From contig SKVS01000103.1 of the NCBI GenBank assembly GCA_007129335.1, positions 1 through 14,453 of the forward strand: 14,453 nucleotides of DNA, written 5' to 3'. Positions within the stretch are counted from its first letter, which is position 1. The number at the start of each line of letters is the position of its first letter. The position numbers were made by a program, and so were the translations under genes. This document shows, piece by piece, positions 951-6,906 of this stretch. This stretch comes from Spirochaetaceae bacterium. GTDB taxonomy: Bacteria > Spirochaetota > Spirochaetia > DSM-27196 > Salinispiraceae. The notes beneath the pieces were generated by a model, which was not told the DNA's origin, did no database searches, and saw only the letters and a program-made list of their open reading frames with translations.

Positions 951-1058
951 TAGGGCGCTCATGACTATAGATTCAAACCAATAACTCGACAATTGTCGAG
1001 TTATTGGTTTGAATCTATAGTCTCTCAGTAACTTTCATTGTCATATGCGTTTGCCCTG
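951..1058. mobile_element. MITE-like element 1 with 60-bp palindrome core
   Basis: Non-coding element between the divergent genes rsmI and the zinc-ribbon gene. Its centre is a perfect 60-bp palindrome (963-1022). To the right follows TCTCAGTAACTTTCATTG (1023-1040), which matches 17 of 18 bases of the reverse complement of 4739-4756 in element 2. The right terminus (1042-1058) is the reverse complement of CAGGGCAAACGCATATG, identical to the end of element 3. The left boundary is uncertain. I placed it at TAGGGC (951-956), one base off the CAGGGC terminus, inside a 12-base block matching element 2 at 10 positions. No target duplication is visible, so the left end may be degenerate or truncated. 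It probably replaced or displaced the rsmI promoter region. Confidence 0.7.
963..1022. repeat. Perfect 60-bp palindrome, copy 1
   Basis: The sequence is its own reverse complement over all 60 bases, with the axis between 992 and 993 and the core CTCGACAATTGTCGAG. As RNA either strand would fold into one long hairpin; as DNA it could extrude a cruciform. It has no T-tract on either side, so it is not a standard intrinsic terminator. A second copy lies at 4757-4816. Confidence 0.97.
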
Positions 1059-1091
1059 AATAGCTGGATAGTTGGAGGATGGACATAGATT

Positions 1092-1577
1092 ATGGAAATA
1101 GGTGTAATACTTGGGCTGGCTATTCTCATTATCTTTCTTGTTTCTGCGATTTTCGCCCTGGGGAAGAATGATTTTTACTTCCTGGCGGATAAAATGGCTG
1201 ACCGGAGCCGCCGGCAGTTCGGGGTGGTCAAGCCCTGTCCTCTTTGCGGCTCTATGCTTGAGAAAGGGGAGAAGGTTCGGACCAAGGTTTTTACTGTGGA
1301 AAATCCGGGTAAGAAACAGGCCATGGGAATTACCGACAGTTTGGTACACATGTACGGTTGCCAGTACTGCGACCCCCGGGATCGGCTTGCCGATCCTGAA
1401 CCCGAACCCAATGTTATTCCCGGGCCGGGTCATCCGGTACATTCCCGTCCCCGGAGAATTTGTCCTGTCTGTTCCCAGGAGCTAGGTTCGAAAGATCATG
1501 TTGTGGCCCGCTTATTCGAACAGGATAATAAAAAACCCCATCTCCATGTTATTGGCTGCACCCGCTGCCGGAAATAA
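1092..1577 (+). CDS. Membrane-anchored double zinc-ribbon protein of unknown function
   Basis: I do not recognise this 161-residue protein as a named family. Residues 4-23 form one hydrophobic N-terminal helix, probably a membrane anchor. Two zinc-ribbon modules follow. The first has CPLC (C49, C52) paired with CQYC (C90, C93). The second has CPVC (C124, C127) paired with CTRC (C156, C159). Each module has the order CPxC, a spacer of about 30-40 residues, then GCxxC, as in structural zinc ribbons. A proline- and acid-rich linker (about 101-121) separates them. GGAGG at 1074-1078 lies 13 bases before the ATG, a slightly long spacing. It ends 82 bp before aspS on the same strand and could be co-transcribed, but nothing ties its function to translation. 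It may bind protein or nucleic acid at the membrane; this is a guess. Confidence 0.75.
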   Translation: MEIGVILGLAILIIFLVSAIFALGKNDFYFLADKMADRSRRQFGVVKPCPLCGSMLEKGEKVRTKVFTVENPGKKQAMGITDSLVHMYGCQYCDPRDRLADPEPEPNVIPGPGHPVHSRPRRICPVCSQELGSKDHVVARLFEQDNKKPHLHVIGCTRCRK

Positions 1578-1659
1578 TCTGTGAATCCCTCGATCAATTG
1601 AATAAGATCCAAGGTCAGTCCCTTGATGCTCCTTTCCTCCAAGTGATATTCTCCCCCCC

Positions 1660-3459
1660 ATGGAACAACATAAAAGAACCGTCACGTGTGGAAGCCTGAC
1701 CGCTGAAAATGCAGGCCAGAAGGTCGTACTGAATGGGTGGGTCCACCGGCACCGGGATCATGGCGGAGTCCTGTTTCTCAATATCCGCGATCGTTATGGC
1801 ATAACCCAGGTACTCGTGGGTGAAAACGCCGATTCTCATTTACGAACCACCGCTGAATCGTTGAAATTTGAATATTGTGTAGCGGTGTATGGAACGGTTC
1901 ATCTCCGGCCGGATGCAATGGTCAATCCTGATATGCCCACGGGGGCTATTGAGGTTCAGGCGGAACGCATAGAAATTCTTTCAACCTGTGAAACCCTCCC
2001 TTTCATGATAGAGGAGAAGGCTGCTACCAATGAGGACCTTCGGTTGAAGTACCGGTATCTCGATCTGCGTACCGATGGCATGCAGAAAAAAATTGCCCTG
2101 CGCAGCCAGGTTATGTTCCGAATCCGGGAGTATTTGACCAAGGGAGGATTCCTGGAAATTGAAACTCCCACCATGATTCGTTCAACCCCCGAGGGAGCCC
2201 GGGACTTTTTGGTACCGAGCCGGATTCATCCGGGAAATTTCTATGCCCTCCCCCAGAGTCCCCAGCTGTTCAAGCAGATTCTCATGGTTTCCGGCTTTGA
2301 CAAGTATTTTCAGTTGGCCCATTGTTTCCGGGATGAGGATGCCCGGGGAGACAGGCAACCCGAGCATACCCAAATCGATATAGAAATGAGTTTTGTAGAT
2401 CAGGAAGATGTTTTTGCCCTCATAGAAGGTTTGTTCGGTCACATATTTCGGACAACCCTCGGAGTAGATTTGGATTCGGTCTTCCTGCGACTTTCCTATG
2501 ACGAGGCCATGGACCGGTTTGGTTCGGATAAGCCGGACCTCCGGTACGATTTGGAACTTCAGAACGGCGCATTTATGGCCGACATGTCGGATTTCCAGGT
2601 GTTCAAGCAGGCTATTGCCGATGGTGGGGCAATTCGGGCCTTGGTTGTTCCGGGGTGCGCCGATTATTCCCGGAAGCAGATAAGCGACCTGGAGGACACC
2701 GCCAAGATTTATAAGGCCAAAGGACTTGCCTGGCTCAAGGTGGTAGAACCGGGGACGGGGATCGACGGATCGGCTCTGGATGGGGGGATTGGCAAGTTTT
2801 TCTCTGGGAATAGCCAGGAAATTCTTTCCCGCCTGGGTGCAAAAACCGGTGACCTGGTACTCTTTGTTGCCGATACCCGGGCAATTGCCAACACTGCCCT
2901 GGGGTCGGTACGGAGCAGGCTCGGTAAAGACCTGAACCTTGCAAAGCCAGGAACCTTCAAGTTCGCCTGGATCATTGACTTCCCGCTGTTCGAGTGGAAT
3001 GAAGATGAGGAAAAATGGGATGCGGCCCACCATATGTTTACCATGCCTCAGGCCAGGTTTCTGGACACCATGGAACAGAACCCCGGACTAGTGAAGGGGA
3101 ACCTCTACGATCTGGTGTGTAACGGCTACGAAATGGCCTCGGGTTCTATTCGTATTCACGACCCGGCAATACAAAAAAGAATTTTCTCAATTGTAGGATT
3201 CCCCGAGGAAGAAGCGCAAAAGCGTTTTGGTTTCCTGCTGGATGCCTTTCGCTACGGACCTCCCCCTCATGGGGGTATTGCCCCTGGGCTTGATCGATTG
3301 CTCATGGTCATGACCGGAGAATCCACCATTCGGGAGGTTATGGCATTTCCCAAGAACTCGGTGGGAGTCAGTCCTATGGACGACAGTCCCAGTCCTGTGG
3401 ATGAGCAACAGCTGAAAGAGCTGGGACTGAGCCTTTTGTCAACGAATGATCAACACTAA
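1660..3459 (+). CDS. aspS: Aspartyl-tRNA synthetase, bacterial type, probably non-discriminating
   Basis: Class II synthetase that attaches aspartate to tRNA-Asp in the cytoplasm. The 599 residues match the usual bacterial length of about 590. An OB-fold anticodon-binding domain (about 1-110) contains GWVHRHRDHGG. Class II motif 1 lies around 160-190 (GGFLEIETP), motif 2 at 223-244 (FRDEDARGDRQPEHTQID), and a GAD insertion domain covers roughly 290-420. Motif 3 (GIAPGLDRL ... AFPKN) is near 538-566. H34 aligns with P. aeruginosa AspRS H31, and A86 lies where discriminating enzymes carry lysine. Both points suggest a non-discriminating enzyme that also charges tRNA-Asn with Asp. ATG 1660 is the first possible start after an in-frame TGA, but the leader just before it is pyrimidine-rich and has no Shine-Dalgarno sequence. 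It ends 11 bp before serA. Confidence 0.97.
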   Translation: MEQHKRTVTCGSLTAENAGQKVVLNGWVHRHRDHGGVLFLNIRDRYGITQVLVGENADSHLRTTAESLKFEYCVAVYGTVHLRPDAMVNPDMPTGAIEVQAERIEILSTCETLPFMIEEKAATNEDLRLKYRYLDLRTDGMQKKIALRSQVMFRIREYLTKGGFLEIETPTMIRSTPEGARDFLVPSRIHPGNFYALPQSPQLFKQILMVSGFDKYFQLAHCFRDEDARGDRQPEHTQIDIEMSFVDQEDVFALIEGLFGHIFRTTLGVDLDSVFLRLSYDEAMDRFGSDKPDLRYDLELQNGAFMADMSDFQVFKQAIADGGAIRALVVPGCADYSRKQISDLEDTAKIYKAKGLAWLKVVEPGTGIDGSALDGGIGKFFSGNSQEILSRLGAKTGDLVLFVADTRAIANTALGSVRSRLGKDLNLAKPGTFKFAWIIDFPLFEWNEDEEKWDAAHHMFTMPQARFLDTMEQNPGLVKGNLYDLVCNGYEMASGSIRIHDPAIQKRIFSIVGFPEEEAQKRFGFLLDAFRYGPPPHGGIAPGLDRLLMVMTGESTIREVMAFPKNSVGVSPMDDSPSPVDEQQLKELGLSLLSTNDQH

Positions 3460-3470
3460 GGAGTTTCTCA

Positions 3471-4640
3471 ATGTTCACCATAAAAACCTTGAATGAAATC
3501 AGCAGTCAGGGATTGTCTCTGCTGCCCAGGGATCGCTTTACTATCTCAAAGGATGAGGAAAATCCTGACGGCATTATTCTTCGCTCGTTCAAGATGCACG
3601 GAATGGATTTGCCTCCCGGACTCAAGGCTGTTGCCCGGGCCGGAGCAGGAACGAACAATATTCCTATTGATGCATGCAGTCAAAAGGGGATTGTGGTTTT
3701 CAATACCCCTGGAGCCAATGCGAATTCGGTGAAGGAACTTGTTCTTACGGGAATGTTCATTTCAAGCCGGAAAATCACCGAATCCATTGCCTGGAGCCAG
3801 GGATTGAAAGGAAAGGGTTCTGAGGTTCCAAAGCTGGTAGAATCGGGTAAATCGAATTTTGCTGGTCCGGAAATTCTGGGAAAAAAGCTTGCGGTGGTAG
3901 GACTGGGAGCAATTGGAGTCATGGTTGCCAATGCTGCGGTGGCCCTTGGGATGGAAGTGCTGGGTTACGATCCGTACATCAGCGTCGAAAGCGCGTGGGG
4001 GTTGAGCAGGGCGGTACAGCGGGCAGGCAGTCTTGAAGGGTGTATTGGGGATGCGGATTTCATTAGCCTCCACGTACCCCTGTTGGACAGTACCACAGAA
4101 ATGGTAAATGCTTCCCTCCTGGCAAAGATGCGCCCTGGGGTCAGGATTCTCAATTTTGCCCGGGGAGAGTTGGTGGATACTCCAGCAATTCTGGCAGCAT
4201 TACAAGGGGGCAGGGTTTCAGCCTATGTTATAGACTTCCCTACAGACGAACTTCTGGGAGTCGATGGGGTCATTCCTATTCCCCATTTGGGTGCCAGTAC
4301 ACCCGAGGCCGAGGAAAACTGTGCAATAATGGCAGCTAATCAGCTTCGAAATTATCTGGATCTGGGAAACATAAAAAACTCGGTCAATTTTCCCGATTGT
4401 GAAATGGATTTTACCACCGGTCTTCGGTTGACCATTTCCAATAGGAACATTCCAAACATGGTAGGACAAATAACAACGGTTCTTGCCCAGGAAAACATTA
4501 ATATTGCCGATCTGTTAAACAGGCATCGGGGCGATCTGGCCTACAATATTATCGACCTGGATGGGGATATAAGCGAGGTAGCTCTGGATAAGGTCCGATC
4601 TATCGAGGGTATTATCGGTCTCAGGGTAATTCGGCGCTGA
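3471..4640 (+). CDS. serA: D-3-phosphoglycerate dehydrogenase with ACT domain
   Basis: It likely oxidises 3-phosphoglycerate to 3-phosphohydroxypyruvate with NAD, the first step of serine synthesis. The protein has 389 residues, the compact form without the extra domain of longer PGDHs. The substrate-binding domain flanks a Rossmann domain with VGLGAIG (143-149) and the NAD-selective acidic residue D167. Catalytic residues expected in the family are visible: R231 in NFARGELVD, E260 in FPTDE and H272 in PHLGAST. The R-to-E spacing equals that of E. coli SerA. The C-terminal ACT domain (about 318-389) suggests feedback control by serine or another amino acid. The ATG follows AAGGAG closely. With only 11 bp after aspS it is almost certainly in the same operon. 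No serC lies nearby, so a related 2-hydroxyacid dehydrogenase role is the main alternative. Confidence 0.88.
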   Translation: MFTIKTLNEISSQGLSLLPRDRFTISKDEENPDGIILRSFKMHGMDLPPGLKAVARAGAGTNNIPIDACSQKGIVVFNTPGANANSVKELVLTGMFISSRKITESIAWSQGLKGKGSEVPKLVESGKSNFAGPEILGKKLAVVGLGAIGVMVANAAVALGMEVLGYDPYISVESAWGLSRAVQRAGSLEGCIGDADFISLHVPLLDSTTEMVNASLLAKMRPGVRILNFARGELVDTPAILAALQGGRVSAYVIDFPTDELLGVDGVIPIPHLGASTPEAEENCAIMAANQLRNYLDLGNIKNSVNFPDCEMDFTTGLRLTISNRNIPNMVGQITTVLAQENINIADLLNRHRGDLAYNIIDLDGDISEVALDKVRSIEGIIGLRVIRR

Positions 4641-4643
4641 GTC

Positions 4644-4661
4644 AGGGGGTGGGTGCCCCCT
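4644..4661 (+). terminator. GC-rich hairpin just after serA
   Basis: AGGGGG (4644-4649) pairs with CCCCCT (4656-4661) around a six-base loop, starting three bases after the serA stop codon. There is no T-tract behind it, so it may pause polymerase or protect the mRNA 3' end rather than be a full intrinsic terminator. Confidence 0.35.
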
Positions 4662-4712
4662 ACCTACTCCGCCGGCTTAATGTGCTGCTCCGGTTTGATA
4701 TGCCTCAGCCCT

Positions 4713-4722
4713 GGGGTGTACT
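4713..4722. repeat. Left target-site duplication of element 2
   Basis: GGGGTGTACT directly precedes the CAGGGC terminus of element 2 and matches CGGGTGTACT at 4884-4893, just after its other end, at 9 of 10 positions. The length equals the 10-bp duplication around element 3. Confidence 0.75.
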
Positions 4723-4883
4723 CAGGGCTAAAGCAGGGCAATGAAAGTTGCTGAGAGACTATAGATTCAAACCTGTAACTCGACAATTGTCGAGTTATAG
4801 GTTTGAATCTATAGTCATAAGCGACCTAGTTCTCCTGGGCTTACGGATTTTCCACTTTCAATATTCGCCCTGCTTTAGCCCTT
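4723..4883. mobile_element. MITE-like element 2 with palindrome core and terminal inverted repeats
   Basis: A 161-bp non-coding element between serA and the histidine kinase gene. The left end reads CAGGGCTAAAGCAGGGCAA and continues through TGAAAGT (4748). The right end (4854-4883) is its inverse with a 4-base insertion and one changed terminal base. The outer arms pair perfectly over 16 bp (4724-4739 with 4867-4882). A 60-bp near-palindrome sits inside at 4757-4816. Flanking 10-bp direct repeats (9 of 10 identical) mark it as an insertion. Its internal 4739-4816 block matches element 1 in reverse orientation. It contains no transposase, so it would have to be moved in trans. It lies immediately upstream of the kinase gene, so transcription of that gene must cross or start within it. 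Confidence 0.82.
4757..4816. repeat. 60-bp near-perfect palindrome, copy 2
   Basis: Same sequence as the palindrome at 963-1022 except at three positions, with the same core CTCGACAATTGTCGAG. Only one of its 30 pairs is imperfect: G4775 opposite T4798, which would be a G-U wobble in RNA. T4774 with A4799 replaces the A-T pair seen at 980/1005 in copy 1. Confidence 0.96.
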
Positions 4884-4893
4884 CGGGTGTACT
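4884..4893. repeat. Right target-site duplication of element 2
   Basis: CGGGTGTACT follows the right end of element 2 and is the partner of GGGGTGTACT at 4713-4722. The GTG at 4887, an apparent upstream start of the kinase frame, lies inside this duplication. Confidence 0.75.
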
Positions 4894-4928
4894 TGATTGC
4901 TCTTTTGAGCTGGGATAAACTCTGGCAC

Positions 4929-6746
4929 ATGGGCATTGTCTCCCGCATTAAATCTTTTGCATCGTATAAAACAGTCCTGTATCACAGGGATTTTCACCGG
5001 GTGAACTCCCGGATGACCCTGGTCCGGTTATTTTTCTTTCTTGCTACCCTCATCCTCGAGTGGGTGCTTTGGTACACCTTTTCGGCGGATATAAAAGAAG
5101 CCTACGGGCTTTACCGTGTTTTTCTCCTTGGTTTAACCGTCTTGTTGCCATTTCGCATAGTTCTCTCGTACCGGCCAAGACCTTTCTTCCGAAAGGTTCA
5201 GGAATCCCTTTTATTTTTTTCATCGCTGGATTACGCAGGATGGATTTTCCTTGGCCTTCTTGGTCCGCCGAATGCCCTGAGGTTTGTTTTCCTGTATTTG
5301 GTATCATTTCCCTATTTGCTCACCACCCTGTTTCCCTTGAATTCGGGTTACACCCTTGCCAGCCTTCTGACCGAGATGGTTGGTTTTATTCTGATTCTCT
5401 GGGCATCCCTTGCCCGGGGATGGTTGCCTGTGGGTATAGTTTGGTTGGTGTTTTACATCATCTTAGCGGGGGTAATGGCCATTCATGGGGGCTTGATCGT
5501 GTATTTAACCAAGGTCGGGCAGGTTAGGTACAGAAAAATCCAGGGTTACCACGGAATGCTCCGGCGTCAGCGGGACTGGCTGCAAAACCGCCAGGATATT
5601 ACCCGTTCCCTTTACGCCCGGGTGAGTCATGAGCTTCGAACTCCCCTGAATGGAATTATGGGAATGACAAACCTCTTGCAGGATTCGGCACTTCCTCCGG
5701 ATCTTTTTGAGTACACCCTGGGTATACGGAGTAATGCGGAGCTTCTTCTGAGTATCATTAACGATATTCTTGACAAGTCAAAAATCGATTCGGGTTTTTT
5801 TGTTGCCGAAAAGCGGCAATTTTCCCTGGGTGATACCCTGAACATTTTGGGTCTTACCATTCGGCATACCCTCGGAGAGAAGCCTGTTCGGTTGGATATT
5901 ATGACCGATCCCCAGGTTCCTGACATAGTGCAGGGAGATCAGACCAGGCTCATGCAGATTCTCTTCAATATTCTCGGTAATGCTGCTAAGTTCACCAAAG
6001 AAGGTACCATTACCCTGGATGTGGGAATGGAGGCAAGGCAGGATCATAGGTTTTCCCTTAGTTTTCGGGTAACCGATACGGGAATCGGAATCCCGCAAGA
6101 TCAGATCTCCCGGATTTTTGATGAATATGTTCAGCTTCATTCAGTGCAGGGCCTTGGGGGATCGGGGTTGGGCCTGTCCATTACCCGGGATATTGTACGT
6201 GCCCTGGACGGTACCATTCATGTTCAAAGTACCCTGGGTAAGGGTACGACCTTTCGGGTTACTCTCCCTTTCGAAGTTCCCGGTTCGCTGGGGGAAAGGG
6301 TCGGCGGAATGGTGCAGCCAAGTCTTTTTCCCGGAATCAAGCCTGAACCAGTTTGCCTGAAGGTGCTGGTTGTAGATGATAACGGGGTAAACAGGCAGAT
6401 TCTTCAGCGCATGCTGGAAAAGGCTGGGTGCTTCGTTCATCCCCTTGCCAGTGGTGGGAGCGCTTTGGAATCCATGACCCTGGACCGGTATGATTTGGTT
6501 TTTCTGGATTACCAGATGGCCGATATGAACGGGGTAGATGTTATTCGGGAATTAGACCGGAAAATTGCGGGAAGTTCGCCCTGGTCCGGCACCCGGATAG
6601 AAAACATCATTCTCATTACCGGCCATGGAGCTGATATACTTACCCAGGATATTAGTCACAGGATTCATAGTTTTCTCCAAAAACCCGTTCGTCTTACCCA
6701 GATCATGCAATTATGTAATCCCCGGGGAGTTTCCGAATCTGATTGA
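4929..6746 (+). CDS. Membrane hybrid sensor histidine kinase with C-terminal receiver domain
   Basis: Hybrid two-component kinase that should autophosphorylate and pass the phosphate to its own receiver. From ATG 4929 it has 605 residues. About six membrane helices fill residues 30-194 and form the sensor part; no known sensory domain is obvious. The dimerisation domain holds the H-box SHELRTPLNG with phospho-acceptor H234. The ATPase domain shows the N-box (N351 in ILGNAAKF), G1 box DTGIGIP (383-389), F-box FDEY and G2 box GGSGLGLS (410-417). The receiver (about 477-595) has DD483-484, phospho-acceptor D527 in LDYQM, T564 and K585. The frame is open back to GTG 4887, but that lies in the duplication flanking element 2, so I prefer ATG 4929. 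Neither start has a good ribosome site. No partner regulator or phosphotransfer protein is adjacent, so its signal and output are unknown. Confidence 0.92.
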   Translation: MGIVSRIKSFASYKTVLYHRDFHRVNSRMTLVRLFFFLATLILEWVLWYTFSADIKEAYGLYRVFLLGLTVLLPFRIVLSYRPRPFFRKVQESLLFFSSLDYAGWIFLGLLGPPNALRFVFLYLVSFPYLLTTLFPLNSGYTLASLLTEMVGFILILWASLARGWLPVGIVWLVFYIILAGVMAIHGGLIVYLTKVGQVRYRKIQGYHGMLRRQRDWLQNRQDITRSLYARVSHELRTPLNGIMGMTNLLQDSALPPDLFEYTLGIRSNAELLLSIINDILDKSKIDSGFFVAEKRQFSLGDTLNILGLTIRHTLGEKPVRLDIMTDPQVPDIVQGDQTRLMQILFNILGNAAKFTKEGTITLDVGMEARQDHRFSLSFRVTDTGIGIPQDQISRIFDEYVQLHSVQGLGGSGLGLSITRDIVRALDGTIHVQSTLGKGTTFRVTLPFEVPGSLGERVGGMVQPSLFPGIKPEPVCLKVLVVDDNGVNRQILQRMLEKAGCFVHPLASGGSALESMTLDRYDLVFLDYQMADMNGVDVIRELDRKIAGSSPWSGTRIENIILITGHGADILTQDISHRIHSFLQKPVRLTQIMQLCNPRGVSESD

Positions 6747-6764
6747 CCTGGCTATCCAACAGGA

Positions 6765-6774
6765 CAAACCCAGG
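6765..6774. repeat. Left 10-bp target-site duplication of element 3
   Basis: CAAACCCAGG directly abuts the left terminus of element 3 and is repeated exactly at 6897-6906. Confidence 0.92.
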
Positions 6775-6896
6775 CAGGGCAAACGCATATGGCAATCAAG
6801 CCTGGCAACATAGCGCAATGAGGTTGGATAAACACCTACAACTGAGCATTAAATGGGTCATTTTCCCGAATCACTTTGCCATATGCGTTTGCCCTG
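6775..6896. mobile_element. MITE, 122 bp, with 21-bp perfect terminal inverted repeats
   Basis: A non-autonomous element between the kinase gene and the prolyl isomerase gene. The left end (6775-6795) begins CAGGGCAAACGCATATG, and the right end (6876-6896) is its perfect reverse complement over 21 bp. The element is flanked by an exact 10-bp direct repeat, CAAACCCAGG, the expected footprint of transposition. The roughly 80 bp inside carry no gene and do not resemble the palindrome core of elements 1 and 2. A 10-bp duplication is long and is compatible with IS4-like transposases, but the source IS is not in this window, so the family assignment is inference. The perfect repeats and duplication point to a recent insertion. 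Confidence 0.93.
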
Positions 6897-6906
6897 CAAA
6901 CCCAGG
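6897..6906. repeat. Right 10-bp target-site duplication of element 3
   Basis: Exact copy of CAAACCCAGG at 6765-6774, directly after the right terminus GCCCTG of element 3. Confidence 0.92.

Follow-up and report, generated by a model that had tools for sequence, protein, structure and literature searches.

Results

Three short intergenic elements in the window

The window, the whole stretch of 14,453 nucleotides analysed here, is contig C61 of its own assembly (G000), which comprises 2.0 Mb in 410 contigs and is 57.7% complete. It contains three short elements, E1, E2 and E3, which at 108, 162 and 122 bp are too short for a transposase gene. The best NCBIfam matches of the genes near them are a 16S rRNA methyltransferase, an aspartyl-tRNA synthetase, a phosphoglycerate dehydrogenase, a hybrid histidine kinase and a peptidyl-prolyl isomerase, of which only the methyltransferase and the synthetase matches passed the curated cut-off. 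All three elements are intergenic, provided that the methyltransferase gene starts at position 917 and not at the outermost TTG at position 992, which lies inside E1. None of the listed open reading frames of at least 80 aa lies inside E1, E2 or E3, two mechanical ones entering E1 from outside, and an Rfam search of the window gave no match at gathering scores.

E2 (positions 4723 to 4884, forward strand) is a nearly full-length miniature inverted-repeat transposable element (MITE) of a family built around a 60-bp palindrome, which here occupies positions 4757 to 4816 and belongs to neither strand, its arms being 97% complementary. In its left end a second CAGGGC comes after CAGGGCTAAAG, the sequence of its right end is GCCCTTC, and the inverted ends are imperfect. 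E3 (positions 6775 to 6896, forward strand) is a MITE of a second family, whose inverted ends start with CAGGGCAAACGCATATGGCAA and are 100% complementary over 21 bp (22 bp as computed, with one flanking base pair counted in). The first-pass annotation reported 10-bp duplications around both elements. E3 is indeed flanked by CAAACCCAGG at positions 6765 to 6774 and exactly again at 6897 to 6906, 10 bp with 0 mismatches on the forward strand, whereas the bases flanking E2 share only the 9 bp GGGTGTACT (positions 4714 to 4722 and 4885 to 4893, forward strand) and not a clean 10.

E1 (positions 951 to 1058, reverse strand) ends in the intact 17-bp ISAs1-type end CAGGGCAAACGCATATG (positions 1042 to 1058, reverse strand), the same as in E3. 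Its 60-bp palindrome (positions 963 to 1022, no strand) is perfect, 100% complementary without a spacer, and together with its flank corresponds to E2 in reverse, the two forming an inverted repeat with 90-nt arms that are 93% complementary; the initial description of E1 as the end of E3 joined to the palindrome and flank of E2 was accurate. We detected no target duplication for E1, its outer 10-mer having at least 4 mismatches to everything in positions 801 to 974, which is chance level. The alignment rules out E1 as a third type of element: as aligned, it is a truncated E2-family copy in reverse orientation that has lost about 55 bp of its far side together with that end, which reduces the three element types first proposed to two families.

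Two MITE families recur across the genome

Both families are non-coding and have one end, CAGGGCAAACGC, in common. The CAGGGC singled out earlier as the shared end is contained in this longer sequence, which is also the end common to the complete ISAs1 elements found in this analysis. We rejected a relationship between the two interiors, as no word longer than 8 bp is common to those of E2 and E3, in agreement with the earlier view of E3 as a common end on an unrelated interior. The features of MITEs were all found: short length without a transposase gene, many copies in one genome, target-site duplication and inverted terminal repeats, the latter being 21 bp at 100% in E3, imperfect in E2 and reduced to one end in E1.

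Genome searches and local BLAST over fetched stretches revealed about 47 E2-type loci, some of them just short fragments, and about 19 E3-type loci (20 matches, because the copy on contig C351 is split by an insert), all counts being approximate, since the assembly is incomplete and one element may be represented by two pieces at contig ends. Allowing at most one mismatch, CAGGGCAAACGC occurs at 119 sites in the 2.0-Mb genome compared to 1 for a control pattern, so its recurrence is not due to chance; as anticipated, similar ends turn up on many contigs, in many combinations of ends and cores. Pairing of ends at a spacing of 35 to 400 bp gave 63 pairs, 62 of them with both flanks, and 10-bp duplications with at most 2 mismatches flanked 26 of these 62 against 0.60 expected from shuffled flanks, pairs that share an end not being independent. 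The 36 pairs with more than 2 mismatches are a mix of real but old copies (e.g. those on C381 and C203) and spurious pairs. Duplication-flanked elements range from 51 bp (C116) and 61 bp (C189) up to 166 bp (C328), and the C351 element, 256 bp including its insert, is also duplication-flanked. The smallest two lie at G000:C116:2585-2635, with 1 mismatch in the 10-bp duplication, and at G000:C189:10479-10539, with 0 mismatches.

Other loci were peculiar. The E3-family copy at G000:C351:5903-6158 is broken by about 134 bp of another repeat, with ends GAGTCCCCTGAAAAAAG and CTTTTTTCAGGGGACTC and flanks TTGGAT, which is probably a further MITE family. At G000:C17:214-413, an E3-family copy directly adjoins a truncated E2-family copy, into which it possibly inserted; the other half of the latter was not seen. 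A 122-bp element at G000:C315:4274-4395 has the same ends and an interior that is at best a distant relative of E3, and possibly represents a third interior family.

Across 61 genomes, own genome included, a search with the E2 interior at a threshold of 0.1 returned, outside the own genome, only end-sized matches and a single core match (28 bp in genome G018, E = 0.0019), and the E3 interior had no homologue outside the own genome at E≤0.001. When 392 genomes of the phylum were searched by pattern, 3 gave any match, and among the matches listed, at most 10 per genome, the form CAGGGCAAACGCAGGGC was confined to the own genome.

The palindrome is less divergent than the rest of the E2 core

The palindrome is exactly 60 bp long in 16 of the 19 copies with both arms. 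Over the 10 distinct sequences of these 60-bp copies, complementarity holds in 287 of 300 pair cells, and both arms are altered at three positions. Divergence over 17 copies is lower in the palindrome (0.062) than in the rest of the core (0.168), which could result from selection for a hairpin or from arm-to-arm templated repair. The assembly breaks inside the E2 palindrome on contigs C107, C207, C273 and C331 and elsewhere in an E2-type element on C130, C148 and C295; such breaks may help explain why the assembly is so fragmented.

Ends and cores occur in many combinations

Alignment of 21 E2-family copies showed that the outer left module is followed by CATATG, by CAGGGC or by nothing, or is itself doubled, some ends being doubled in tandem, while the right end carries either CATATG or CCCTG. 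Four copies (C61e1, C148, C273 and C107) lack one end and were left out, and among the remaining 17, which have both, seven of the eight left/right combinations are present, in 5, 4, 2, 2, 2, 1 and 1 copies. End states were labelled by eye, with C371 and C398 as borderline cases assigned to CAGGGC, and C385 and the right end of C297 as borderline cases assigned to CATATG; C331 has no outer module on the left, and the contig boundary truncates C295 at its left end. A single core subgroup (94.9-100% core identity) holds all four left types. When mapped on a tree of the cores, left ends required 8 changes compared to a mean of 8.8 after shuffling, and 97 of 300 shuffles were as low; for right ends the figure was 5 compared to 6.8 (34 of 300 as low), which indicates weak clustering with cores. 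Since the tree is weak (of 17 inner branches, 1 was starred and 9 were open), these counts are soft and show no more than the lack of a clear correspondence between ends and cores.

The ends are those of ISAs1-family insertion sequences

The exact 17-mer CAGGGCAAACGCATATG occurs in 95 stretches of a species-level genome collection, against about 30 expected by chance according to our own arithmetic. Among the 80 of these that were listed, 6 belong to Clostridium sp. KNHs214, 10 to the planctomycete LacPavin MAG_68_11 and 8 to Spirochaetales CG_2015-01t_49_51 (JAACWS), and 10 have a partner end within 6 kb together with an 8-11-bp duplication (at most 1 mismatch). Two of these 10 are copies of a 1391-bp insertion sequence in KNHs214 (L106 6087-7477 and L142 6207-7597), each with CAGGGCAAACGC at both ends and exact 10-bp duplications. 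The 378-aa product of the open reading frame, read in the L106 copy only, matches PF13808 and PF01609 as well as NF033564 (E = 1.7e-129), i.e. an ISAs1 transposase. A second complete element was found in G036, a spirochaete of the same order (L246 952-2277); it is 1326 bp long, has CAGGGCAAACGC at both ends and the exact 10-bp duplication ATCAAGCGCC, and encodes a 386-aa ISAs1 transposase (E = 3.6e-126). In L106, L142 and L246, one end of each element runs on from CAGGGCAAACGC into ATATG. The insertion sequence with the same ends, whose identification had been proposed as a check, is thus of the ISAs1 family, and the MITEs have ends identical to those of an autonomous element and a duplication of equal length (10 bp).

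Searches with PF13808, NF033564 and protein queries found no ISAs1 transposase in the own 57.7%-complete assembly. Above the cut-off, such transposases were present in 11 of the 61 genomes (own included), G000 and G001 not being among them. G001, which belongs to the same genus, has 11 exact 17-bp ends, and a contig break lies 80-95 bp inside the end in 6 of 6 fetched stretches. The sequence inside these ends is of two kinds, one of which reads RRKIAFMRDDYLEQLLFSPDPIT followed by a stop and aligns with the C-terminus of the G036 transposase (score 56, maximum of 1000 shuffles 40) and of the KNHs214 transposase (score 33, shuffle maximum 29). A protein search also gave an ISAs1-like C-terminal match at G001:C19:7-96 (E = 0.028), so that G001 yields C-terminal transposase traces only. 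From these comparisons of sequence, the transposase serving the families of E1, E2 and E3 is very probably of the ISAs1 type; as carriers of ISAs1 ends, the elements are probably passengers of its transposase. We infer that the species itself has such a transposase, either unassembled or encoded in the missing part of the genome.

Discussion

We consider it highly likely, on the strength of sequence comparison, that E1, E2 and E3 are ISAs1-type MITEs mobilised in trans, with two interiors on the same ends, E1 being truncated and the ends having been mixed by exchange or re-duplication. An ISAs1-type transposase would recognise the shared ends, which are bounded by 10-bp duplications, and would move elements with either of two unrelated interiors, that of E2 with its 60-bp palindrome and that of E3. 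The end types, with CATATG or a second CAGGGC beside the outer 11 bp, with neither, or with the 11 bp doubled, would then have become freely mixed with core subtypes as dispersed copies repeatedly exchanged ends or re-duplicated them locally. The suggestion that one transposase moves interchangeable cargoes holds insofar as one type of end sits on unrelated interiors; the "cargoes", however, are short non-coding interiors. More tentatively, the 11-bp end CAGGGCAAACG may be an exchangeable and stackable module, copies gaining, losing, doubling or swapping ends by nested insertion or conversion while one ISAs1-type transposase re-mobilises the new combinations of ends and cores, down to 51-61 bp.

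How the varied ends arose admits other explanations. They may have formed separately in each copy, by slippage and point change (CATATGGC to CATGGC to CAGGGC) or by duplication of 11 bp, within the end, the outer CAGGGCAAACG sufficing for transposition and no exchange between copies being needed. We regard this as quite plausible, if somewhat short of an even chance: the left end of C385 contains the intermediate CATGGC, the doubled 11-bp modules of C381 and C328 resemble tandem duplication, and CATATG is probably ancestral since the complete elements of KNHs214 and G036 have it at one end and all 10 of the G001 ends listed show it as well. However, CAGGGC, mirrored at the right, stands in place of CATATG at either end and throughout the core subgroups defined by eye, and the core itself looks recombinant in two copies, C203 combining the body of one subgroup with the AGTAG end of another and C107 combining a body with an ATTCG end. 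A rather less probable route to doubled ends is that one copy inserted into the end of another, 11 bp in, duplicating AGGGCAAACG, and that transposition then used the outer end of the host copy together with the far end of the inserted one. The left end of C328, which reads CAGGACAAACA-CAGGGCAAACG with the duplication CCCCGGGTAT/CCCCAGGTAT flush with the outer module, fits this course of events, and copies do meet, as in the abutment on C17; yet none of the end pairs carries AGGGCAAACG on both sides, and, of the 9 copies whose left end shows a second CAGGGC or a doubled module, 7 have CCCTG at the right too, which calls for a second event.

Two further alternatives concern the origin of the elements themselves. 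That their transposase is unrelated to ISAs1 and the ends similar by coincidence seems very unlikely: the lack of a detected ISAs1 transposase in the own assembly would fit, but complete ISAs1 elements in Clostridium and in a spirochaete of the same order are bounded by identical ends of 12 bp, extending to 17 bp on one side, and by duplications of the same 10 bp length, and within the genus ISAs1-like C-terminal sequence adjoins such ends. Proximity of the three elements, all within 6 kb, is what a single local recombination joining the end of E3 to the core of E2 would predict for E1, but palindrome cores with CATATG ends also lie on, for example, C18, C360, C331 and C112; with the same combination on other contigs, we rejected one local event as the source of the similarity between the ends of E1 and E3 and give it practically no weight.

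The first-pass annotation saw in the locus its best candidate for something undescribed. MITEs that borrow the ends of an insertion sequence are in fact a well-described class, and it is the two families that are new. ISAs1 elements (NF033564; DDE_Tnp_1 and DDE_Tnp_1_assoc), as represented by the complete ones of KNHs214 and G036, have the same terminal CAGGGCAAACGC, continued by ATATG on one side, and likewise duplicate 10 bp of target, whereas E1 to E3 are only 108-162 bp long and without transposase. In the parts of the reports considered, MITEPye1 of Paracoccus yeei is tied to IS1182 (PMC11578231) and MITEs of P. gingivalis have IS5-like ends (PMC4596501). Like these, our elements are short, non-coding and multicopy, with IS-like ends and target duplications, E1 to E3 being intergenic in the window; unlike them, as far as those parts describe them, they belong to another IS family, place one end on two unrelated interiors and mix their end types. 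TIMEs, according to the portion consulted, are likewise non-autonomous units on shared transposon ends that form mosaics, but these are derived from Tn3, make 5-6-bp duplications and in some mosaics bear genes, whereas the E1-E3 families have short non-coding interiors only (PMC4133298). Literature searches on ISAs1, MITEs, spirochaetes and ends, which gave mostly listings, returned no description of ISAs1-derived MITEs in spirochaetes, one on end exchange returned nothing, and the parts seen of PMC5756416, PMC3281130 and PMC10969869 hold nothing on ISAs1-family ends.

Our analysis connects two repeat families from a poorly known lineage of spirochaetes, orphans until now, with a definite family of transposases. 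The mixing of ends and cores is the interesting part, a modest but real curiosity, and the dozens of related copies provide a set for working out the minimal transposon end and end exchange between MITEs. The same ends, flanked by 10-11-bp duplications with 0-1 mismatch, also bound short elements of 122-334 bp in planctomycetes, Mesorhizobium and another spirochaete (L108 6633-6774, L110, L121, L133, L134, L145, L160 and L183), and MITEs with such ends may be widespread.
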